DNA of 52,388 bases from an uncultured bacterium (GCA_903945435.1 CAJAVM010000014.1:1-52388), one strand, 5' to 3'. Positions 7,273-49,836 are shown, numbered from the stretch's first letter. Made by a program: numbers and translations. Notes: generated by a model from the letters alone, not told the origin.

Positions 7273-9891
7273 ATGAAACATGAATTAGACAAGATATATA
7301 TTCCCTCCGCTGGTGAGCTCGGAACATATGAAAAATGGGAAAAATCGGGATATTTTAATCCCGATAATTTAGACCTACCAGAAAGTGCTAAAAGTTATAC
7401 GATAGTTCTCCCTCCCCCTAATATTACAGCAAAATTACATTTAGGACATTCGGCTATGTTAGCTATAGAGGATTTGATTATTCGCTATAAGCGCTTAAAC
7501 GGATTTAGAACTCTTTGGATTCCTGGGACTGATCATGCCGCTATTGCGACTCAAAATGTAGTTGAAAAAAAAATTCTTCAAGAACAGGGTAAAACTAGAC
7601 ACGATTTAGGCCGAGAGGCTCTCCTAAAAGAAGTTTGGTCTTTTTTGGAAAAAACGCAAGGAGAAATATTAACCCAAACTAGAAGAATGGGCGCTTCGCT
7701 AGATTGGTCGCGTCTAGCTTTTACTTTAGATGAGCAACGTCAAAACGCTGTTAAACGGATGTTTAAAGAAATGTATGATGAGGGTGTTATTTATCGAGGA
7801 GAAAGAATGGTTAATTGGTGTCCCAGATGTCATTCTACATTAGCAGATGATGAAGTTGAATATAAAGAAGAAAAAGCTAAACTTTATTGGATAAAATATG
7901 GACCTTTTGTATTAGCAACCTCAAGACCAGAAACTAAATTAGGTGATACCGCCGTTGCTGTTCATCCTGATGATACAAGATATCAACACTTTATTGGTCA
8001 AGAATTAGATATAGAAGGTGTTTTGGGTAAGTTTCAAGTTAAAGTTGTTGCTGATAAGGCTGTAGAAATGGATTTCGGTTCCGGAGTGATTAAGGTTACT
8101 CCTTCCCATAGCTTTATTGATAATGAAATTGCTGAACGCCACAATCTTCCTGGTAAGAAAATTATTAATGAAGATGGCGAGATGATGGCTAATTGTGGTA
8201 AATATGCTGGAATGAAAACGGCTGTTGCTAGAGAAGCGATTGTCTCTGACATGCAGGCCATGGGCTTAATTGATCATATCGATGAAGATTATATACATAA
8301 CTCAGCTAGATGTTACCGTTGTGATTCTGTTATTGAACCATTACCATCCGAACAATGGTTTATTGGGGTAGATAAAAAAATTAAACGATTAGGCGATAAG
8401 TCTTTAAAAGAAAGAGCAATTGAAGTTGCCTTGGAAAATAAAATCACCTTTACTCCCGATAGATTCAAAAAAAGATATATTGATTGGATGGAAAATCTAC
8501 ATGATTGGTGTATTTCCCGTCAAATATGGTTTGGTCATCAAATTCCTGTCTGGTATAAGGATAAAGAAATATACTGCGGACTAGAGGCCCCAACTGGAGA
8601 TGGATGGAAACAAGATGAAGATACTTTAGATACTTGGTTTTCTTCAGGAATGTGGACATTTTCTACTTTAGGATGGCCTGAAAATTATAATGATGATAAA
8701 AAAACTGGTGATTTAGCTAAATTTCACCCTACTCAAGTTTTAGAAACTGGTTACGAAATTATTACTTTGTGGGTTTCTAGGATGATAATGATGTCTCTTT
8801 TTGCTCTTGATGAGGTTCCGTTTTCACAAGTTTATTTACATGGCATGGTTTTAGATAAGGATGGTAAGAAAATGTCTAAGTCTAAGGGTAATGGCATCGA
8901 TCCGCTAGAAATGATTGAAAAATATGGCGCTGATGCGGTACGCTTGTCTTTGCTTATGGGATTTACTCCTGGCAATGATACAAAATTTAGTGAAGATAGA
9001 ATAGAAACTAAAAGAAATTTTGTAAATAAGTTGTGGAATATTTCTCGTTTTGTTTTATCATCCGATAATTTAGTCGAGACTGATACTAAAGTTATTCCTC
9101 AGGCAAAAACATTAGCTGATAAATGGATACTCAATGCTTTACAAGAAACAGTTGCGACTGTGAGTAAAAATTTAGATGAGTTTAACTTCTCTGTTGCTGC
9201 GGATATATTAGATAACTTTACTTGGAATCAGTTAGCTGATTGGTATTTAGAAATCTCAAAGATAGAAAAAAATAAAGATGATATTTTAATATACATACTT
9301 AAGCAACTATTGATTATTTGGCACCCATTTACCCCATTTGTTACAGAAAAAATTTGGGAGAGCTTTAATGATAATCTATTAATGGTTGAAAAATGGCCAC
9401 AGTTTGAAAATATAGATACTGTAAATTCAAAAAATATAAATTTAGATTTTAATCTTATTCAAGATATTGTGGTTGCAATTAGAAATGCCCGCAGTCTTAA
9501 TAAAATTGAACCAGCTAAGAAATTGCAGGCTGTGATATATGCACACGGATTAGAAAAAATACTTTTTGATAATCAAGAAATTATTAAAAATTTAAAAACT
9601 GGTATTGATAACTTAGAAATTCATAGCGATGGCGATAAAATTAATGGCGCGATTGCTATTGTTTGTGGTTCTGTTGAAATTTATTTATTAGGAGCTATCG
9701 ATCCTCAAAAAGAAAAAGAAAGATTAACTAAAGAAAAAAATAATTTAGAAAAATTAATAACTCTACAAGAACAAAAATTAGCTAATCAAGAATTTGTTGG
9801 TCGCGCTCCGGAGAAAATAGTTACCGCTGAAAAAGAAAAACTAGAGAACTATAAAAAAGATTTGTTTAAAATAAATCAAGCTATTATTTAA
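7273..9891 (+). CDS. valS: Valine--tRNA ligase
   Basis: Class Ia synthetase charging tRNA-Val, 872 residues (normal bacterial size). The HIGH signature is HLGH at 56-59 inside PPPNITAKLHLGH. The editing (CP1) domain occupies the middle, with ATSRPETKLGDTAVAVHP. KMSKS lies at 533-537 (GKKMSKSKGN). The C-terminus has an anticodon-binding domain and the ValRS coiled-coil arm, rich in Lys and Glu (about 810-870). No Shine-Dalgarno sequence precedes the ATG. It leads the valS - membrane protein - pheS - pheT run, with very short gaps. Confidence 0.97.
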   Translation: MKHELDKIYIPSAGELGTYEKWEKSGYFNPDNLDLPESAKSYTIVLPPPNITAKLHLGHSAMLAIEDLIIRYKRLNGFRTLWIPGTDHAAIATQNVVEKKILQEQGKTRHDLGREALLKEVWSFLEKTQGEILTQTRRMGASLDWSRLAFTLDEQRQNAVKRMFKEMYDEGVIYRGERMVNWCPRCHSTLADDEVEYKEEKAKLYWIKYGPFVLATSRPETKLGDTAVAVHPDDTRYQHFIGQELDIEGVLGKFQVKVVADKAVEMDFGSGVIKVTPSHSFIDNEIAERHNLPGKKIINEDGEMMANCGKYAGMKTAVAREAIVSDMQAMGLIDHIDEDYIHNSARCYRCDSVIEPLPSEQWFIGVDKKIKRLGDKSLKERAIEVALENKITFTPDRFKKRYIDWMENLHDWCISRQIWFGHQIPVWYKDKEIYCGLEAPTGDGWKQDEDTLDTWFSSGMWTFSTLGWPENYNDDKKTGDLAKFHPTQVLETGYEIITLWVSRMIMMSLFALDEVPFSQVYLHGMVLDKDGKKMSKSKGNGIDPLEMIEKYGADAVRLSLLMGFTPGNDTKFSEDRIETKRNFVNKLWNISRFVLSSDNLVETDTKVIPQAKTLADKWILNALQETVATVSKNLDEFNFSVAADILDNFTWNQLADWYLEISKIEKNKDDILIYILKQLLIIWHPFTPFVTEKIWESFNDNLLMVEKWPQFENIDTVNSKNINLDFNLIQDIVVAIRNARSLNKIEPAKKLQAVIYAHGLEKILFDNQEIIKNLKTGIDNLEIHSDGDKINGAIAIVCGSVEIYLLGAIDPQKEKERLTKEKNNLEKLITLQEQKLANQEFVGRAPEKIVTAEKEKLENYKKDLFKINQAII

Positions 9892-11311: not shown

Positions 11312-13738
11312 ATGTATATTTCTTATAATTGGTTGAAAGATTTTATTAAATTATCACCCAAAGTTTCTCCGCAAGAAATTGCGGAAAGATTAACCTCGCA
11401 TACAGTAGAAGTAGAGGGCTTAGAAAATCAATCAGAAAGCTTTTTAAATATTGTTGTCGGTAAAGTATTAGAAGTTAAAAAACATCCAAATGCTGATAGG
11501 TTGCGGTTAGTCTTAGTTGATATTAAAGAAAAAAAATTACATATAGTTTGTGGTGCACCTAATGTTGCAGAAGGACAACTTGTTGCCGTTGCTTTAGTAG
11601 GAGCTATCTTACCGGGCGGACTAGAGATAAAAACTAGCGAAATTAGAGGAGAACTCTCAGAAGGAATGATTTGTGCCGAAGATGAGCTTGGCCTTGGTAA
11701 GGACCACGACGGTATTATGGTTTTAGATAAACGTGCTAAAGTTGGAGAACCATTTTCTCAATATTTGAAATTAGATGATATTATTTTTGAGGTAGATAAT
11801 AAGTCTTTATCTAATAGACCAGACTTATTGAGTCACTACGGCTTAGCCCGAGAATTAGGGGTAATTTTTGATGCTCACTTAAAACCGTATGAAAAAGTAA
11901 TCGGGGAAAAGCTAGAATTTGTTAATGATAAGAAAATTAAGTTTGATGTTGTGGTTGAAAATAAGGATGTTTGTGCTCGTTATATGGCTGTTAGAATTGA
12001 TAATGTAAAAATTTCTGAGTCTCCAGTATGGCTTAAAGAAAGACTAATTTCTATTCACCAGCGTCCAGTTAATAACATAGTAGATATTACTAATTATGTA
12101 ATGTTTGAATGTGGACAACCGTTACACGCATTTAATGCTGATAATATAAAGAAAATTATTGTTCGTCTGGCTCGTAAAAATGAAACCATTGAAACATTAG
12201 ATGGTAAAGAGCGGGCTTTAGATGTAAATGATATAGTTATTTGCGATAATACTCAGCCGATAGCGATTGCTGGAGTTATGGGCGGAAGAAATAGCGAAAT
12301 TAATGATACTACACACTCAATTATTTTAGAGTCAGCTAATTTTAAGGCAGCTACAGTAAGGAAGACTGCTAGTCGTTTAGGTTTAAGAACTGAAGCTTCA
12401 GTACGTTTTGAAAAATCACTAGACCCGCTTTTAACTGAGGATGCTTTGCATCGTTTTGTTTCCTTATTAAAGAAAGTTTGTCCAGAATTAAAAATATCTA
12501 GCGAACTTTTTGATGTTAAAGATAAATTACCTGAACTAAGTAATATTGAATTAGATTTTGTTTGGTTATTTTCTAAAATTGGACAAGAGATTCCTAAAGA
12601 ACAGGTTGTTAGTATTCTCAGTAAACTCGGGTTTAAGGTAGTGAAGCATAAAGATGTTCTTAATATTACAATTCCTTCATGGAGAGCTACTAAAGATGTT
12701 AAAAATCGTGAAGACTTGGTTGAAGAAATTCTACGTATTTATGGATATGATAATATTGAATCTTCTTTACCTACAGAAAAGTTATCTGTCCCAGAAATAA
12801 ATCAAGAAAGAATGATGGAGCGTAGGATTAAAGATGTTCTAGCTTTAAAATTTAATTTAAGCGAATCTTATAATTATTCTTTTGTTGGAGAGGAACAATT
12901 AAAAAAATTAAATATTGATTTCTTTAATCATTTGAAATTAGCTAATCCGTTATCAGAAATTCACAGTATGTTGCGTCAGTCTTTAGTTCCTGGATTAGTA
13001 TCTAATATAAAAATTAATCAGTTTAAAGATGATAAATTAGGATTTTTTGAAGTTGGGAGTGTATTTTTTAATGCTCCTGGAGAGTTTAAAAAAGATAATG
13101 AAACTGAGGATGTTGTCCCTTATCAAGAAAAACGATTAGGCATTGTAATGGCAAACAATGAGAGTGATATTTTTATTAGTTTAAAGAGTTTGGTATCTGG
13201 ATTTTTGCGAGAAATTATCTTCCAGAATGAAGTTACATTTTCAGAGTTTGAAAATATTCCCGGTTGGGCTAATAAAAAATTAGTTGCTAAAATTTCTATC
13301 CTTGGTAAAGAAATTGGCTGGATTGGTACACTAAATGAAGATGCTAGTAATAATCTTAATCTAAAATTGAAGGTTGGGTTAGTGGAAATTAATTTAGATG
13401 CATTAATAAAAATTATTTTAGATTTAGCACCACTTAGATTTCAGGAGGCGGCAAAATATCCAGCCGTAACTCGTGATTTAGCCTTTGTTATTTTTGAAGA
13501 AATATTGTATAATGATCTTAAGCGAGAAATTATTTCTTTTAATTCATTAATTAAATCAGCTGAATTATTTGATATTTATACAGGTGATAAATTAGCGAGC
13601 GGAGAAAAGAGTTTAGCATTTCACCTTTCTTTTCAATCAGATGAAAGAACGCTAACATCTTCCGAGGTTGATGTAATTCAAAACGAACTAGTTGCTCATT
13701 TAGCTAATAAATTTGAAGCTAAACTAAGAAATTTTTAA
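11312..13738 (+). CDS. pheT: Phenylalanine--tRNA ligase beta subunit
   Basis: The beta subunit, which holds the editing and tRNA-binding parts of PheRS; 808 residues from the ATG at 11312. An upstream TTG at 11294 would overlap pheS and add six residues, and I judge it unlikely because MYISYNWLKDF is the usual beginning. Order: tRNA-binding OB fold (about 40-150, KKHPNADRLRLVLVDI), B3/B4 editing domain (about 210-385), B5 domain (about 405-475), catalytic-like core, and a C-terminal ferredoxin-like anticodon-binding domain (FQEAAKYPAVTRDLAFVI onward). Confidence 0.97.
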   Translation: MYISYNWLKDFIKLSPKVSPQEIAERLTSHTVEVEGLENQSESFLNIVVGKVLEVKKHPNADRLRLVLVDIKEKKLHIVCGAPNVAEGQLVAVALVGAILPGGLEIKTSEIRGELSEGMICAEDELGLGKDHDGIMVLDKRAKVGEPFSQYLKLDDIIFEVDNKSLSNRPDLLSHYGLARELGVIFDAHLKPYEKVIGEKLEFVNDKKIKFDVVVENKDVCARYMAVRIDNVKISESPVWLKERLISIHQRPVNNIVDITNYVMFECGQPLHAFNADNIKKIIVRLARKNETIETLDGKERALDVNDIVICDNTQPIAIAGVMGGRNSEINDTTHSIILESANFKAATVRKTASRLGLRTEASVRFEKSLDPLLTEDALHRFVSLLKKVCPELKISSELFDVKDKLPELSNIELDFVWLFSKIGQEIPKEQVVSILSKLGFKVVKHKDVLNITIPSWRATKDVKNREDLVEEILRIYGYDNIESSLPTEKLSVPEINQERMMERRIKDVLALKFNLSESYNYSFVGEEQLKKLNIDFFNHLKLANPLSEIHSMLRQSLVPGLVSNIKINQFKDDKLGFFEVGSVFFNAPGEFKKDNETEDVVPYQEKRLGIVMANNESDIFISLKSLVSGFLREIIFQNEVTFSEFENIPGWANKKLVAKISILGKEIGWIGTLNEDASNNLNLKLKVGLVEINLDALIKIILDLAPLRFQEAAKYPAVTRDLAFVIFEEILYNDLKREIISFNSLIKSAELFDIYTGDKLASGEKSLAFHLSFQSDERTLTSSEVDVIQNELVAHLANKFEAKLRNF

Positions 13739-13767
13739 TTAATCAAATATATAACAAGTCTTATAAT

Positions 13768-14073
13768 ATGCTATCAACATCTTCAGACATTTTAAATTTA
13801 GTTTTAGCACTTTGTGTTGCTATCTTAACTTTCTTTTTGTCTCTTTCTTTGTATTACTTTATTTCTAGTGCTCAAAAAATACATAGATTAATTAGACAAG
13901 TAGAGGCTGGGGTTTCCAAGGCAGATGAAGTTGTAACTATAGTAAGAGAAAAATTAAAAAACGGCTCTGCATATTTAATGGTTTTAGCAGAAGTTGCAAA
14001 ACAAGCAGTCGAGTTCGCTAAAAAGAAAGATTGGGGTCAGAAAACAGAATCTAAAGCTAGTAAGAAAAAATAA
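13768..14073 (+). CDS. Single-pass membrane protein with coiled tail, unknown function
   Basis: 101 residues. One membrane helix (about 9-33) is followed by a cytosolic amphipathic stretch, SAQKIHRLIRQVEAGVSKAD, that resembles DUF948/YtxH-type anchored helices, and a Lys-rich end. It follows pheT by 29 bases and is closed by a strong terminator, so it is probably the last gene of the valS-pheST transcript. I do not recognise a specific family. Confidence 0.7.
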   Translation: MLSTSSDILNLVLALCVAILTFFLSLSLYYFISSAQKIHRLIRQVEAGVSKADEVVTIVREKLKNGSAYLMVLAEVAKQAVEFAKKKDWGQKTESKASKKK

Positions 14074-14090
14074 TCATTATTACTTTGAAT

Positions 14091-14126
14091 AAAAAAAGTC
14101 GCAACCGATTAAGTTGCGACTTTTTT
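14091..14126. terminator. Bidirectional terminator between the pheT operon and topA
   Basis: GTCGCAAC (14098-14105) and GTTGCGAC (14113-14120) around a seven-base loop, with a run of A before and six T after, serving both convergent transcripts. Confidence 0.88.
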
Positions 14127-14129
14127 ATT

Positions 14130-16340
14130 TTATTTACAATCTTTATTACTACATTTATCTTTACCAGAAGCATTAGTTATCATTAGTGCTCCGCATTTTT
14201 TACAGTCTTTTCCAGTTGGTTCTCCTTGATAAGCATTTTTGCATTTTGGATAATTACTACAAGCATAAAATGCTCCACGTTTACTAAACTTCTTCACTAT
14301 TTTTCCTTCGTGACAAACTGGACATTCAACTTCTTTGCCATCGGCCGCACCAATATTTTTAATATTTTTGCATTTAGGATAAGCTGAACATGCTAAGAAT
14401 GGTCCATATTTTCCAACTCTAACTTTCATTGCTGAGCCACATTTTTCACATACTTCCCCGGCATATTTTTTTTCCATTTCTAATATTTTAGGATCGGCTG
14501 GTTTTTCTGGTTCGGCATTACCGGCTGCTCCAAGCTTTTTAATGTTATGACATTCAGGAAAACCACTACAAGCTAGAAACTTCCCATATCGTCCCGTTTT
14601 AATAATCATTTTTTTACCACATTTATCGCAAATTTCGTTTGATTGTTCTTCTGGCATAATGTCGCTTTTATTAATTTCTTGATATTTAGCTTCTAAGTTT
14701 TTACTAAATTCATCATAGAACTCGCCGATAATTGGCTGCCACTTTTTTTCACCGTTAGCAATTAAATCTAAATCATCCTCCATTTGAGCGGTAAATTTAT
14801 AGTCTACTATTTTTGGAAAGTGTTTTATTAAAAGTTCGGTTACTACAAAGGCGATTTCGGTTGGCTTTAATCTTTTATTTTCTTCTCTCTCTACATAATT
14901 ACGAGCAATAATAGTTGCAATGGTTGGAGCGTAAGTAGATGGACGTCCAATTCCATATTTTTCCATTTCTTTGACTAGACCAGCATCAGAATATCTAGCT
15001 GGTGGGTTAGTGGTATGTTTTTCAGATAATATTTGAGTTAAGTCTACACTTTCATTTTCTGTTAAGTTTGGTAGTGTTTGTTCCTTAGTTTTTTCGGGCC
15101 AAACTTTTAAATAGCCAGGAAAAGAAATCATTTGTCCATTAGCGCGTAGGATATATTCGTTTTCTGCTTGCTTTGCTTCTACATCAATAACAGTTGCATC
15201 TAAACTAGCGGCTGACATTTGACTAGCGACTGAACGTTGCCAGATTAAACGATATAGCCTTTCTTCGGTACTGTCTAAACTATTTTTTAGTTCGTCCGGG
15301 GAGATATTTGCTTCTGTTGGTCTAATAGCTTCGTGGGCTTCTTGAGCATTCTTGCTTTTGTTTTTATATAATTTCCCTCCGGAGCAATATTCTTTTCCCA
15401 AATTACTCGTAATCCAATCTTTAGCATCGGCAACAAACTTAGGAGATAAATTTAATGAGTCAGTACGCATATATGTTATATAGCCCTTTTCATATAATTT
15501 TTGAGCAACAGTCATGGTTTGTTTAGCACTAAAGCCGAGATGACGATTTGCACCTTGTTGTAATGTTGAGGTTGTAAATGGAGCTGATGGCGATTTACTA
15601 ACTTTCTTTTTTTCTATTTTTTTAATTAAATAATTGCATTGTTCTAGATTGCTTTTAATTAAATTCGCCTGGTCTTCTTTTAGGGAAAGCTTCTCAAAAG
15701 ATTTACCGTTAATTTTTAATAGTTCAGTTTGAAACTCTTCTTTTTGTTTAGTAATTAAATCAGCAGTGATTGTCCAATAATCTTCTTGCTTGAAAGCTCT
15801 GATTTCTTTTTCTCTTTCGATAATAATTCTAGTAGCAACACTTTGTACTCTTCCGGCTGATAATCCTTTAGCTACTTTCTTCCATAAAAATGGTGAAAGT
15901 TTATAACCAACCAATCTATCTAAAATACGTCTTGCTTGTTGAGCATCAACCATATTAATGTCTATGTTTCGGGGATGTTTCAGTGCTTCTAAAATAGCAT
16001 CTTTAGTAATTTCATGAAAAACGATTCTTTTAGTTTGGCTCTCATTAAGTTTTAAAGCTTGAGCTAAATGCCAGGCAATAGCTTCTCCTTCGCGGTCTTC
16101 ATCAGAAGCTAGAATAACTTCGGTTGCTTTAGCGGCGGCAGATTTAAGACTGCTAACAGTTTTTTTTGCTTTTGCTGGAATTACGTATTTAGGATTAAAA
16201 TTATTTTCTAAATCAACACCTAATTCTCGGCTAGGTAAATCACGAATATGTCCGAATGAAGATTCGACTTTATATTTACCGTCTAAGAATTTGCTGATAG
16301 TTTTAGCTTTCGTTGGTGATTCAACAATTATTAAATTCAT
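14130..16340 (-). CDS. topA: DNA topoisomerase I
   Basis: Type IA topoisomerase relaxing negative supercoils, 736 residues. It has an N-terminal TOPRIM domain (IIVESPTKAKTI at 4-15, then SDEDREGEAIAWHL with the acidic metal-binding triad). The catalytic core has the active-site tyrosine at about residue 290 in YITYMRTDS. The C-terminus carries three full four-cysteine zinc ribbons (starting CDKCGKKM, CEKCGSAM and CPVCHEG) and a fourth short one ending the protein (CKKCG...CSNKDC). dprA starts upstream and ends 22 bases before this gene, so the pair may be co-transcribed. Confidence 0.97.
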   Translation of the reverse strand: MNLIIVESPTKAKTISKFLDGKYKVESSFGHIRDLPSRELGVDLENNFNPKYVIPAKAKKTVSSLKSAAAKATEVILASDEDREGEAIAWHLAQALKLNESQTKRIVFHEITKDAILEALKHPRNIDINMVDAQQARRILDRLVGYKLSPFLWKKVAKGLSAGRVQSVATRIIIEREKEIRAFKQEDYWTITADLITKQKEEFQTELLKINGKSFEKLSLKEDQANLIKSNLEQCNYLIKKIEKKKVSKSPSAPFTTSTLQQGANRHLGFSAKQTMTVAQKLYEKGYITYMRTDSLNLSPKFVADAKDWITSNLGKEYCSGGKLYKNKSKNAQEAHEAIRPTEANISPDELKNSLDSTEERLYRLIWQRSVASQMSAASLDATVIDVEAKQAENEYILRANGQMISFPGYLKVWPEKTKEQTLPNLTENESVDLTQILSEKHTTNPPARYSDAGLVKEMEKYGIGRPSTYAPTIATIIARNYVEREENKRLKPTEIAFVVTELLIKHFPKIVDYKFTAQMEDDLDLIANGEKKWQPIIGEFYDEFSKNLEAKYQEINKSDIMPEEQSNEICDKCGKKMIIKTGRYGKFLACSGFPECHNIKKLGAAGNAEPEKPADPKILEMEKKYAGEVCEKCGSAMKVRVGKYGPFLACSAYPKCKNIKNIGAADGKEVECPVCHEGKIVKKFSKRGAFYACSNYPKCKNAYQGEPTGKDCKKCGALMITNASGKDKCSNKDCK

Positions 16341-46108: not shown

Positions 46109-46993
46109 ATGAAAACACGTTTCGCATTTGTTGTGGCTTTGATGATTACAGTAATCATTGGCCAACCGGTATTTGGACAAACCAAAGCTCTTGATTTAAT
46201 CTCTGGTCAAATTAAAACAGCTACTGCTGATTTGAAAAGAGCTGAGAAAAAATTTGATTCCGAAAAAGCTCGCAAGATTTATGAGCTAAAGAAAGAATCA
46301 AGGAATCAGGAGATTAAAGGTCTTCGCTCGAATAACCCGGAAGTAATTGACGCTGCAGCTATTAGTATTAAGACTCTTAACACTCAGGTTGACTCTGTTT
46401 CTAAAATGGAATCGAATGCTGATGTGCAATTGGCTGCAAAAAGACTGTATGAGTTACAACAAGAAAAGGCTTCAGTTTTTGAATCCGAGTTAGCCGCTGC
46501 TAAAGCAAACGCTAAACCGGCAACTAAAACTGCTACTACTCCCGATTCAGCTGAACCCACTCCTGTTGTTGCTAAAATTGATCCCTACGATCGCAAAATT
46601 CCGACTCGGCTTACCAAGCTGGACCGTAATCAGCGCTCTCGTTCACACGCTACTCGTGTAGATGAGGTACTTATTTCTCGAGTTGAGAATAATGCCAACA
46701 TGGTGATGACCCCTGCTGGAAATTCCGGTGGCTATAAAGTTATCTTTGATAACATGTACAGCTCACCCGTAAATTTCATTGCGAGGTCAATTAGTAGTTC
46801 AGTCAAAGTTGCTGTTATGGTTGACCCAGGAGTTATGTGCACCAAGTATATGCTTCCCGGGAAGTATATGGTAGAAATCTACATTAATGGCGTTATGTCT
46901 GAACAACCAAAGTTGATGACAATCGACGGGCAAGAGTGTGACTATAAAGGAAACTTGTGTTTCAATTATGCATTTGCGCCAAAATTTCGTTAG
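46109..46993 (+). CDS. Secreted protein of unknown function
   Basis: 294 residues. A signal peptide (about 1-23, ending VFGQ) is followed by a charged coiled-coil region (about 25-130: TADLKRAEKKFDSEKARKIY and onward) and a Pro/Thr/Ala linker (about 133-155). The C-terminal domain has beta-strand character and three cysteines (MCTKYMLPGKYMVEIYING, QECDYKGNLCFNYAF). I recognise no family. Base use is richer in G+C than the neighbours: four 60-base lines I counted (46261, 46561, 46741, 46801) hold 99 G+C of 240, against 21 of 60 in each of two nearby lines. With the Gln cleavage site and perfect promoter, this suggests a recently acquired, well-expressed surface or secreted protein. Confidence 0.8.
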   Translation: MKTRFAFVVALMITVIIGQPVFGQTKALDLISGQIKTATADLKRAEKKFDSEKARKIYELKKESRNQEIKGLRSNNPEVIDAAAISIKTLNTQVDSVSKMESNADVQLAAKRLYELQQEKASVFESELAAAKANAKPATKTATTPDSAEPTPVVAKIDPYDRKIPTRLTKLDRNQRSRSHATRVDEVLISRVENNANMVMTPAGNSGGYKVIFDNMYSSPVNFIARSISSSVKVAVMVDPGVMCTKYMLPGKYMVEIYINGVMSEQPKLMTIDGQECDYKGNLCFNYAFAPKFR

Positions 46994-47044: not shown

Positions 47045-47077
47045 AAAAAAAGGGAGTATCTAAAAAATACTCCCTTT
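47045..47077. terminator. Terminator of the pilin-like cluster
   Basis: AAAGGGAGTAT (47049-47059) and ATACTCCCTTT (47067-47077), perfect 11-base arms. On the minus strand a run of seven T follows, so it mainly ends the pilin transcript; it also faces the secreted unknown gene. Confidence 0.88.
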
Positions 47078-47099: not shown

Positions 47100-47522
47100 T
47101 TACCCCCCAGTTCCTACTTGAATACTTCCGCCACCAGTAAATGGTAATTGATTGAAGATGAAATAAGTAATTGTATAAGCAGCGAGAACAACTACTAATC
47201 CGATAACTGCCGCCGTAATCGTCTTTGTTGCCTTTTTAACTTGCTCCTCATTTCCACTCGCAGTCATCCATCTAAATCCAGCAAAAATGATTAAGATTAA
47301 AAATATAATAGCTAAAAATCCTAAAGCAACTTGGATTATCTGAGCAGCCATTTGACCGATTGTAATATCACCAAGATTGGCGGCATCTTTAGTAGTTTTT
47401 GTCATGCTTTCGAGTTCTGAGGAGTTATTTAATAGTTGGGCGGAAACAGTAGTTCCTAATAACAATTGAGCCGCAATGCTAACAGAAAGTATTAATAAAG
47501 ATAGTTTAATAAATTTTTTCAT
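47100..47522 (-). CDS. Pilin-like protein 6 of the tandem array (VirB2/TrbC-like, T4SS_pilin)
   Basis: 140 residues. A signal peptide (about 1-28, ending VSAQ) is followed by a short exposed segment and two membrane helices (about 58-82 and 103-125). Between them lies the array's common cytosolic loop, here FRWMTASGNEEQVKKATKTI. The tail is Gly-rich (FTGGGSIQVGTGG). The fold outline is that of conjugative VirB2/TrbC pilins. It is the last gene, followed by the cluster terminator. There is no Shine-Dalgarno sequence before the ATG. Confidence 0.8.
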   Translation of the reverse strand: MKKFIKLSLLILSVSIAAQLLLGTTVSAQLLNNSSELESMTKTTKDAANLGDITIGQMAAQIIQVALGFLAIIFLILIIFAGFRWMTASGNEEQVKKATKTITAAVIGLVVVLAAYTITYFIFNQLPFTGGGSIQVGTGG

Positions 47523-47534
47523 AGTATTAATCGA

Positions 47535-47987
47535 TTATTGACTGCCGACAATTAAAGCTTTGAAAATAAAATTCCAAATTGCCCAAGCTGATAAGGAAAC
47601 TATTAATCCGATAATAGCAGCCTTGATTGTTGTAGTTGCTTTTTTGATTTTTTCTTCATTGCCGTTAGAAGTCATCCAAACATATCCAGCAATAATCATT
47701 AGGACAATGAAAGTTAGGCCAGTAAAATTGATAAACGCGCCAACTATAACACCAACTATTCGTGGAGTTGAAGCAATTGCTTCGTCTGTAGTATATCCAG
47801 CGCTACCTCCAACATTCTTTAATCTCCCGGTTAGAGTATTGTCGCCTGACGTATCTGCTGGCGGTGGAGGAGGAGGGGTAATTTCGTTTTGAAATTCAAC
47901 ATTATTTGATTGAGCCTCAACTGTAAATGGGGCAACTAAAAAGACCAGGAGGGATAATAACAAATATAATTTAATTAACTTTTTCAT
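47535..47987 (-). CDS. Pilin-like protein 5 of the tandem array
   Basis: 150 residues, the longest member. Signal peptide about 1-25 (ending TVEAQ), then an exposed segment of about 60 residues that starts with a six-proline tract (ITPPPPPPADTSGDN) not seen in the others. Two membrane helices follow, around the common loop YVWMTSNGNEEKIKKATTTI. It lies 12 bases before pilin 6 and has a purine-rich GGAG close to the ATG. Confidence 0.8.
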   Translation of the reverse strand: MKKLIKLYLLLSLLVFLVAPFTVEAQSNNVEFQNEITPPPPPPADTSGDNTLTGRLKNVGGSAGYTTDEAIASTPRIVGVIVGAFINFTGLTFIVLMIIAGYVWMTSNGNEEKIKKATTTIKAAIIGLIVSLSAWAIWNFIFKALIVGSQ

Positions 47988-48008
47988 ACTCCTATTTTTT
48001 AAATAAAC

Positions 48009-48431
48009 TTATTTTAACAAAGCTTTAGCCAATAGCCCTGAGAATCCGGAACTTAAAGCATAGGCGAGTAGAACGATTACTAGTCCAACTATTAGAGATT
48101 GAATTCTCGCTTTTGATTTTTTTACTTTTTCTTCGTTACCAGCTGCTTGCATCCAAGTATTACCTGCTACAAACATTAAAACTATAAATATTGTTCCTAG
48201 TGTTCCTAAAACTATCTGGATAGCTGTTCCTATCATTTCTTCTAAGCTTTTAGTTCTATCTACGCTAGTTTGGTCAGCGAATTTGTTAAGATTATTATCA
48301 AGCTCTGTTTTTTTACTATCTTTTATAATGCCGCTCGTAAGACCACTTTGAGCATTTACATTAGCAAAAACAAATAAGCAGCTTAAAGAAATAAAAAGGG
48401 AGGTAATAGTTATTTGTAAATTTTTTTTCAT
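48009..48431 (-). CDS. Pilin-like protein 4 of the tandem array
   Basis: 140 residues. Signal peptide about 1-27 (ending NVNAQ), an exposed charged segment (KDSKKTELDNNLNKFADQ), and two membrane helices with the loop NTWMQAAGNEEKVKKSKARI. This member has Q in place of the usual T in the WMT motif. It starts two bases after the stop of pilin 3. Confidence 0.8.
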   Translation of the reverse strand: MKKNLQITITSLFISLSCLFVFANVNAQSGLTSGIIKDSKKTELDNNLNKFADQTSVDRTKSLEEMIGTAIQIVLGTLGTIFIVLMFVAGNTWMQAAGNEEKVKKSKARIQSLIVGLVIVLLAYALSSGFSGLLAKALLK

Positions 48432-48433
48432 AT

Positions 48434-48844
48434 CTATGCGAAGTACTTGATTAAGAAATAGCTAACCACGTAAGCAGATAGAACAATAATAATCCCGAAT
48501 AAAGCATTCATGATAATTTTGTTGGCTGTTTTTACTTTTTCTTCATTGCCATCAGCTGTCATCCAAACGACGCCTCCATAAATTGCAAAAGCAAGAAACA
48601 TAACACCAACCATGCTAAGAACAATGGTAATTATTCGTCCAATTATGTTATCCACAGTTGCCGCATCCTCACCAGTAACAAACCCACCGGAGTCGGCACT
48701 TTGATTTAAACCACTATCTTCCACAAAATTAAAACCACTATCTTCTGCTTGTCCATAAACGACTTGAGTAGATACAAAAATTGGCGCCAATAAAAACATG
48801 AGCGCCAATAATTTTATAGAATTTTTTGCAAAAAAGTTTTTCAT
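48434..48844 (-). CDS. Pilin-like protein 3 of the tandem array
   Basis: 136 residues. Signal peptide about 1-31 (ending VVYGQ). The exposed segment has an imperfect acidic repeat (EDSGF, EDSGL, ADSGG). Two membrane helices follow with the common loop VVWMTADGNEEKVKTANKII. It lies 31 bases after pilin 2. Confidence 0.8.
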   Translation of the reverse strand: MKNFFAKNSIKLLALMFLLAPIFVSTQVVYGQAEDSGFNFVEDSGLNQSADSGGFVTGEDAATVDNIIGRIITIVLSMVGVMFLAFAIYGGVVWMTADGNEEKVKTANKIIMNALFGIIIVLSAYVVSYFLIKYFA

Positions 48845-48875
48845 TTAATTCATTTGTAAATTCCCTTTCAGTCTA

Positions 48876-49271
48876 TTACCCAAGAAAATTGTTTCCAACA
48901 AAGGCGGTAATGGCATAAGCGGCAAAGACGATAATAATACCGATAACAGAGTTAATCATTAGGGTTTTCGCTTTTGTTACTTGTTGGTCGTTTCCTTGAG
49001 CGGTCATCCAGAGAATACCGGCGTATATCATTAATCCTAAGAAGAGAACGCCAACAAAAGATAATACTACTCCAACAATTAAGCCAACTTTAGTTTGGAT
49101 AAATCCAGTGTAGCTGCTACCGGTATCGTAGGCGGTTACTTTCTGTGCACTATCATTTAGTCCTTGCATCGTTGGGTCAGGAGTTTGAGCTAAGGTTGGC
49201 ATGAGAAAAACAGAAAACATAATTACAAATGTAAACATCAATACTAAAGAAGATAAGATTTTTTTCTTCAT
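48876..49271 (-). CDS. Pilin-like protein 2 of the tandem array
   Basis: 131 residues from the ATG at 49271. The frame is open to 49337, but that extension runs through an intercistronic hairpin and lacks a signal-like start, so I reject it. Signal peptide about 1-29 (ending PTLAQ), an exposed segment (TPDPTMQGLNDSAQKV), and two membrane helices around ILWMTAQGNDQQVTKAKTLM. A strong hairpin (49287-49325) separates it from pilin 1. Confidence 0.8.
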   Translation of the reverse strand: MKKKILSSLVLMFTFVIMFSVFLMPTLAQTPDPTMQGLNDSAQKVTAYDTGSSYTGFIQTKVGLIVGVVLSFVGVLFLGLMIYAGILWMTAQGNDQQVTKAKTLMINSVIGIIIVFAAYAITAFVGNNFLG

Positions 49272-49286
49272 AAAAACGAATTTATT

Positions 49287-49325
49287 CACTGGTTCAAGCG
49301 CAAAATGCTTGTGCCTGAACCAGTG
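49287..49325 (-). other. Intercistronic hairpin between pilin 1 and pilin 2
   Basis: Perfect 10-base arms CACTGGTTCA (49287-49296) and TGAACCAGTG (49316-49325), with a smaller GC-rich stem inside. There is no T-run, so it is not a terminator. Such hairpins often protect the 3' end of an upstream message segment. Confidence 0.7.
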
Positions 49326-49358
49326 ATTCCCATGCAAAAGATGAGAACCACGTATTGA

Positions 49359-49757
49359 TTAAACGGCTGTTCCGCTTGTAGCGTTGTAGATGGAGTTGAT
49401 AACGAAGGTAGCGATAGACCAGGCAGCTAAAACGATTGCAAGGCCGATAACACCGGCTCCTAACAATTTCTTAGATTCAGCAACTTTGTCTTCGTTTCCG
49501 CCAGCAGTCATCCATTTGAAACCTCCCATTAAGATGATAACAACAGCGATTACACCCAAGAAACCTAAAGCAACATTGATAATGCGGCCAATCATTTCTC
49601 TTGGATCGCCTTCAGCTAATGCACCCCCTAATCCGCTCTGAACGTTTTCGATACCAAAGTTAGCAGCTGTTTGAGCGCTAGCTGGGATAACGAAAATAGG
49701 CAGGACTAATAAGGAAATGATAGCCAATGAAATTAAGTGTTTAGAAATTTTTTTCAT
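49359..49757 (-). CDS. Pilin-like protein 1 of the tandem array, probably the major one
   Basis: 132 residues. Signal peptide about 1-28 (ending ASAQ), an exposed segment (TAANFGIENVQSGLGGALAE), helix 1 about 58-78, loop FKWMTAGGNEDKVAESKKLL, and helix 2 about 100-122. It is the first gene after the promoter and the only member with a full Shine-Dalgarno match (AAAGGGGGTGA, 49762-49772). The hairpin downstream could stabilise its message, so it should be the most abundant product. In conjugative pilins, processed two-helix subunits of this kind assemble into a filament. Confidence 0.83.
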   Translation of the reverse strand: MKKISKHLISLAIISLLVLPIFVIPASAQTAANFGIENVQSGLGGALAEGDPREMIGRIINVALGFLGVIAVVIILMGGFKWMTAGGNEDKVAESKKLLGAGVIGLAIVLAAWSIATFVINSIYNATSGTAV

Positions 49758-49761
49758 ATTT

Positions 49762-49836
49762 TCACCCCCTTTCTTTAATATTAAATAATTTTAATTTTAC
49801 ATCTCTAATTTTAGCATATTATTTTAAACAAGACAA
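49762..49836 (-). promoter_or_regulatory. Promoter and strong ribosome binding site of the pilin array
   Basis: Minus strand TTGTCT (49831-49836), 17 bases, TAAAAT (49808-49813) with an upstream TG (extended -10). The leader ends in AAAGGGGGTGA (49762-49772), complementary to the 16S 3' end. Most other genes here lack such a site. Confidence 0.65.

Follow-up and report, generated by a model that had tools for sequence, protein, structure and literature searches.

Tandem arrays of VirB2-like genes are known from Patescibacteria. According to the available text of a recent survey (Quinonero-Coronel et al., 2025; PMC12102498), 441 arrays of 2–11 such genes, with an average identity of 25%, occur in 383 patescibacterial assemblies; the bacteria that carry them have a VirB4 of the Gram-positive type, and adaptation to different hosts is suggested there to explain the paralogs. 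The same text covers the tandem virB2 paralogs of Bartonella and Anaplasma, likewise T4SS pilin genes amplified in host-associated bacteria, which are read as antigenic variation or variety in adhesion. In Southlakia epibionticum a series of predicted pilins encoded within the T4SS cluster is essential, and that T4SS has no recognisable coupling protein or relaxase (PMC10633639).

The locus analyzed here lies in the window, meaning the whole 52,388-nt stretch of DNA under study (contig C14 of a 979-kb source genome in 27 contigs). Since arrays of 2–11 genes are described for Patescibacteria in the available text of the survey, the array itself is of a known kind: tandem PF18895 genes, very divergent paralogs, and a gene number (six) within the published range. 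An earlier note on this DNA had taken one pilin per locus as the normal state, which for Patescibacteria does not hold given those published arrays. Unlike S. epibionticum, where the pilins sit inside the T4SS cluster, the array here is far from VirB4, which in relatives adjoins radA and recG; and in contrast to the Bartonella and Anaplasma paralogs, as these are presented in the survey's available text, most positions here are conserved and appear to be under purifying selection. That text describes no fixed orthology by position, no favoured first gene, no conserved RNA element and no giant proteins headed by a pilin domain.

The six-gene array

Six consecutive minus-strand ORFs occupy positions 47100–49757. 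Just as the earlier note had described, the encoded proteins all begin with a hydrophobic signal at the N-terminus, continue with an exposed segment and carry two hydrophobic helices flanking a loop. In order of transcription they are gene 1 (F; 49359–49757, 132 aa), the proposed major pilin, followed by five proposed minor pilins: gene 2 (E; 48876–49271), gene 3 (D; 48434–48844), gene 4 (C; 48009–48431), gene 5 (B; 47535–47987) and gene 6 (A; 47100–47522). The sharp differences claimed among the exposed segments are all present, with EDSG repeats in D, a Lys/Asp-rich stretch in C, a six-proline tract in B and a Gly-rich C-terminal tail in A. For gene E the likeliest start codon is the ATG at 49271; a mechanical ORF listing had put the start at a TTG (49337). 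With the ATG start an 87-nt spacer separates genes F and E.

A hairpin resembling an intrinsic terminator (13 pairs, then TTTT; 47049–47077, minus strand) follows gene 6. Its position is the main argument for it, because terminators in the region are no commoner than in shuffled sequence (2 seen, 1.9 expected). A promoter scan around the array did no better than chance. Next to the array, at 46109–46993 on the plus strand, the window encodes a 294-aa signal-peptide protein without a Pfam match, and in relatives genes of similar size and similar start, with low similarity, occupy the same array-adjacent place.

Sequence and predicted structure of the six proteins

All six proteins exceed the curated cut-off of the Pfam family PF18895, named T4SS_pilin (33.5, 31.9, 33.8, 30.2, 31.0 and 40.7 bits for genes 1–6, a range of 30.2–40.7 against 26.6), and as a control the same profile search found a match in 1 of 14 named genomes. 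Assignment of the six to unrelated families, an outcome that would have told against the earlier note, is thus not what was found; by profile their membership of the T4SS_pilin family is supported. The VirB2/TrbC-like identity proposed there fared less well by Pfam, in that no array member passes the TrbC/VirB2 profile (PF04956): gene 1 reaches 19.8 bits against a cut-off of 27.9, and genes 2–6 are absent among the matches listed. A paralog on contig C23 (L011:9769-10131) passes both profiles, with 55.4 bits for PF18895 and 28.4 bits for TrbC/VirB2.

The topology of VirB2 (signal peptide, two hydrophobic helices and a short charged loop) is predicted from the sequence of all six. The loop W-M-[TQ]-x-x-G-N-[ED]-x-x-[VI] occurs in every member, with the WMT that had been reported for all of them in five and WMQ in gene C. 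Compared with their orthologs in a related genome (G002), the proteins are 41% identical in the signal, 46% in the exposed segment, 78% in TM1, 79% in the loop and 78% in TM2; among the paralogs the corresponding values are 32, 23, 35, 60 and 39%, and region identities between array paralogs span 14–60%. Conservation thus stands for loop and helices (78–79%) but not for the signal peptides (41%), which had been called conserved and are as variable as the exposed segments. The most conserved array member is gene 1. In its AlphaFold model two long helices (residues 52–84 and 89–128) form a helical hairpin, predicted with a pLDDT of 68 and later of 77. Fold searches with this model returned a generic helical hairpin resembling many unrelated chains; no T4SS pilin was among the fold matches listed, which counts neither for nor against a pilin fold, and a sequence search of the PDB gave no match.

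The proteins might not be filament subunits at all, as the earlier note had allowed in its alternative of non-filament membrane proteins with a pilin-like fold. The two-helix module might instead be a general membrane building block in this lineage, serving as part of the T4SS membrane platform or as an anchor and oligomerization head for surface proteins, a reading that we judge unlikely while giving it real weight. It draws on the listed fold matches, none of which significantly resembles a pilus subunit, and on where else the domain is found: PF18895 has five places outside the array, including the heads of two proteins (891 and 1808 aa) that carry Ig-like, TIG and fn3 domains, and relatives have pilin-like domains in an oxidoreductase operon as well as single ones upstream of nusA and next to a gene for a lipoprotein. 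Moreover, by the available text of PMC12102498, the patescibacterial VirB4 belongs to a class of Gram-positive T4SSs that usually lack pili. Against this stand the topology, which with its signal peptide and two helices joined by a charged loop is that of VirB2, the C23 paralog that passes both profiles, and the strong expression signals on gene 1 alone, which suit a polymer subunit more than an anchor.

Orthology by position across related genomes

The comparison across related genomes that the earlier note had suggested was run on 28 six-gene arrays from different genomes, and shows that the identity of genes 1, 2, 5 and 6 goes with their place in the array. For genes 1–6, best matches fall at the gene's own array position in 93, 79, 40, 31, 82 and 95% of cases (95.5% for gene 6), against a chance expectation of 1/6, the genomes compared being related and not independent of one another. 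In a FastTree phylogeny of 148 domains, in which 17 arrays were tested and supports are those of FastTree, positions 1, 5 and 6 form complete clades (gene 1 monophyletic in 17/17, gene 5 in 17/17, gene 6 in 17/17 plus one extra sequence) and position 2 holds 16/17, while the fast-evolving positions 3 and 4 intermix. By these sequence comparisons genes 1, 2, 5 and 6 are clearly stable orthologs by position across genomes.

Ratios of dN/dS are 0.04–0.09 for helices and loop, 0.12–0.23 for exposed segments and 0.26–0.60 for signal peptides; they come from a counting method and are approximate, with dS near saturation. These estimates indicate purifying selection on the exposed segments. Repeats within the array comprise mainly the conserved loop at 60–80% identity, without long direct repeats; at that divergence they are, from sequence, too dissimilar for gene conversion to be efficient. 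Nor did the array show an invertible segment.

The earlier note had offered a multi-subunit or a switchable filament as one possibility, and the two halves of that proposal part company here: the locus is best read as encoding a multi-subunit surface structure, and a switchable filament is not supported. Under a switchable or antigenically varying scheme only one of the six pilins would be made at any moment, or selection at the host surface would diversify the exposed segments. The strong dissimilarity of the exposed segments among paralogs (23% identity) and the rapid evolution of positions 3 and 4 would fit such a scheme, and the tandem VirB2 paralogs of Bartonella and Anaplasma have been discussed in this way, an idea that PMC12102498, in its available text, extends to Patescibacteria. 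It is nevertheless very improbable in our estimation, since positions 1, 2, 5 and 6 are stable orthologs, the dN/dS of the exposed segments is below that of the signal peptides (with dS near saturation), all six genes lie in one tight operon that closes with a terminator-like hairpin, and the repeats are too divergent for efficient conversion, with no invertible segment in sight.

Translation initiation and spacing

Gene 1 is preceded by a strong Shine-Dalgarno sequence (AAAGGGGGTG; 49763–49772, minus strand) with a duplex energy of −15.0 kcal/mol. Across 27 arrays the median for gene 1 is −11.5 kcal/mol, with values below −6 in 24/27, whereas genes 2–6 are near zero, 0–4% of them being stronger than −6; start codons in this comparison were assigned by a rule of thumb. 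As background, 3% of 101 other long ORFs in the source genome fall below −6 at their first ATG, and the Shine-Dalgarno sequence is missing from most genes of this genome. The gap between genes 1 and 2 has a median of 108 nt, and the remaining gaps are 2–10 nt. With such short gaps and no Shine-Dalgarno sequence, genes 2–6 are probably read by translational coupling, and from less transcript.

A covarying double hairpin downstream of gene 1

Immediately 3' of gene 1, at 49280–49351 on the minus strand, lies a double-hairpin element that is supported by its folding z-score, by compensatory changes and by its occurrence at a single locus. The 110 nt 3' of gene 1 have a mean folding z of −5.7, compared with −0.1 at the other junctions, and z relative to shuffles is below −2 after gene 1 in 36/41 arrays; a pair of neighbouring hairpins was delimited in each of the 38 arrays tested. 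In an alignment of 25 sequences (A3, made with MAFFT from sequence only) compensatory changes occur at 23/25 base pairs. Paired cells make up 94.4% of this alignment, compared with 73.8% when shuffled and 36–46% with slid partners, and covariation is 0.691 compared with 0.267 in shuffles, 0 of 500 of which reach the observed value. The excess of G-U pairs over A-C mismatches (68 to 14) indicates that the element most likely acts as RNA on the sense strand.

A covariance model finds the double hairpin in 29/40 related genomes, most of whose arrays were in its training set; the inspected matches all lie between array genes 1 and 2, save for antisense echoes at that place. Matches outside the training set (left out were G014, G019, G020, G021, G036, G038, G040, G041 and G043) are likewise directly 3' of a gene 1 homolog, and in genomes with a match the element occupies one locus per genome. 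In one locus (L107) gene-1-like genes have multiplied, and three of these each carry a copy of the double hairpin 3'. Among 115 genomes drawn from the class and searched with stricter filters, matches occur only in the three that belong to the source genome's family. The arrays of some families (G042, G044–G051) have no recognisable double hairpin, so the element is not required for such arrays generally. Neither in the window nor at six related loci does any Rfam 15 match overlap the element, and in the open-access literature nothing relevant was found on a known hairpin in pilin operons of this group. The double hairpin appears, from sequence comparison, to be a conserved and previously undescribed RNA. 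Rfam matches elsewhere in the region were at chance level and away from the element, and were dismissed.

Back-to-back inverted repeats are also the shape of REP/BIME units, and an extra palindrome centred on ATCGAT or ACCGGT in some relatives might likewise recall a dispersed repeat or a DNA-level binding site that stands here by chance. This reading is strongly disfavoured and hardly credible: the reported matches in the 40 relatives are confined to the gene 1–2 junction and its own antisense echo, and the 68 G-U pairs against 14 A-C mismatches point to RNA. The extra palindrome belongs to other genera (L049, L050, L100, L102, L104, L109, L133 and L142), where it precedes the double hairpin between array genes 1 and 2; the window array does not have it.

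Rather unlikely is the possibility that the double hairpin attenuates or partly terminates transcription and is not an mRNA-stabilising 3' end, as its long GC-containing stems right behind the gene 1 stop codon, within the 87-nt spacer, could suggest; the outcome would still be an excess of gene 1 mRNA, by a different mechanism. The sequence behind the second stem is generally A-rich (AATAAATT, GAAAAAATAAAT) with no U tract, which argues against a simple intrinsic terminator, and the terminator scan gave none at the gene 1–2 junction.

VirB4 and the genomic setting

Most named relatives that carry gene 1 belong to Candidatus Falkowbacteria, while Magasanikbacteria and Uhrbacteria are more distant; the source genome is that of a Falkowbacteria relative, an ultra-small host-dependent bacterium. 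The absence of VirB4, VirB6 and VirD4 beside the array, remarked on in the earlier note, is correct locally; VirB4 is encoded elsewhere in 57/60 genomes, including all 15 congeners searched, with 72–99% identity over the matched segments of relatives (VirB4 having been found through G002). A consistent lack of any T4SS ATPase in relatives, the other finding that would have weighed against a pilus, is therefore not what the search returned. In G002 the genes for VirB4, a TrsD-like protein and PrgI adjoin radA and recG, with Pfam support for PrgI, the VirB4 P-loop and a coupling-protein-like ATPase.

In the source assembly no VirB4 was detected with PF19044 and PF12846. The closest DUF87 matches were considered as VirB4 and rejected, being coupling-protein-like ATPases and FtsE; a VirD4-like ATPase lies on contig C16. 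Only the first 600 bases of the 16-kb VirB4 region have a full DNA match in the source genome, from which recG is also missing. As recG is nearly universal, its loss together with VirB4 suggests an assembly gap, although synteny with contig C1 did not place that gap exactly.

Pilin-like domains outside the array

PF18895 has 11 places in the source genome (six in the array, five elsewhere) and 4–19 in each of the 60 genomes of the relatives search. Single pilin-like genes lie at conserved loci before nusA (L012:9891-10439), after a gene for a substrate-binding-protein-like lipoprotein (L013:17296-17751) and beside two membrane proteins (L011:9769-10131). Contig C24 carries a pair of genes for giant proteins of 1808 and 891 aa (L009:8098-13524 and 13556-16231), and related proteins of about 850–900 and 1500–2200 aa occur in L057 and L070–L075. 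Their T4SS_pilin heads resemble the product of the first array gene, and those proteins that were scanned carry Big_5 (Ig-like), TIG and fn3 domains at the C-terminus; the genes are a conserved pair beside a RelA-like HD gene, and the heads fall mostly in one clade of the tree. From this architecture it is possible that the giant proteins are pilin-headed adhesins.

In relatives, two proteins of 282–529 aa with pilin-like domains are encoded in an operon resembling that of pyruvate/2-oxoacid oxidoreductase (L058:6109-6957 and 7853-9442; L061; L062); a PF18895 profile search did not find these in the source assembly. Magasanikbacteria and others have arrays of up to 15 pilin-like genes (L111, L132, L136, L143, L156 and L166), some members being far longer than 150 aa, and 15 genes exceed the 2–11 range given in the available text of PMC12102498.

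Discussion

We somewhat favour the view that the array is an operon for a VirB4-powered, VirB2-like pilus or envelope-spanning conduit with gene 1 major, genes 2–6 minor, and their ratio set in the mRNA. Gene 1 (F) would provide the major subunit and genes 2–6 minor subunits with conserved positions. Strong initiation and a structured 3' end would raise the amount of gene 1 product, the double hairpin most likely protecting or defining the 3' end of the gene 1 transcript, and the tightly packed genes 2–6, without Shine-Dalgarno sequences, would give small amounts of companion subunits; the major:minor ratio would in this way be encoded in the mRNA. The subunits would be exported by Sec and assembled by VirB4/PrgI/TrsD-like machinery encoded elsewhere. 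Filament formation, the gene 1 product as the most abundant one and a function for the hairpins are what we infer; the role of the double hairpin could be stabilisation, processing or attenuation.

Major/minor fimbrial operons such as pap have intercistronic stabilising hairpins, and their mRNA structure favours the first structural gene. Proteins and RNA there are unrelated to those described here, where the hairpins are linked to gene 1 and show covariation between related families. A broader proposal, put forward only tentatively, is that the double hairpin represents a new, lineage-restricted class of structured RNA which serves a single gene and sets the pilin ratio of a symbiosis T4SS or senses, for example, host contact, and that the gene 1 module also heads the giant adhesins, a single assembly interface displaying both filament and adhesins.

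Patescibacteria carry many T4SS pilin-like genes despite their tiny genomes, and the locus offers a testable answer to why: the array would supply a constant complement of subunits, one of them flagged in the mRNA as the major one, as opposed to a pool of interchangeable variants. The model predicts a simple asymmetry of expression, and the RNA element gives a handle for spotting the major pilin computationally in uncultured genomes. The pilin-headed giant proteins, for their part, suggest how surface adhesins and a secretion filament may be linked.
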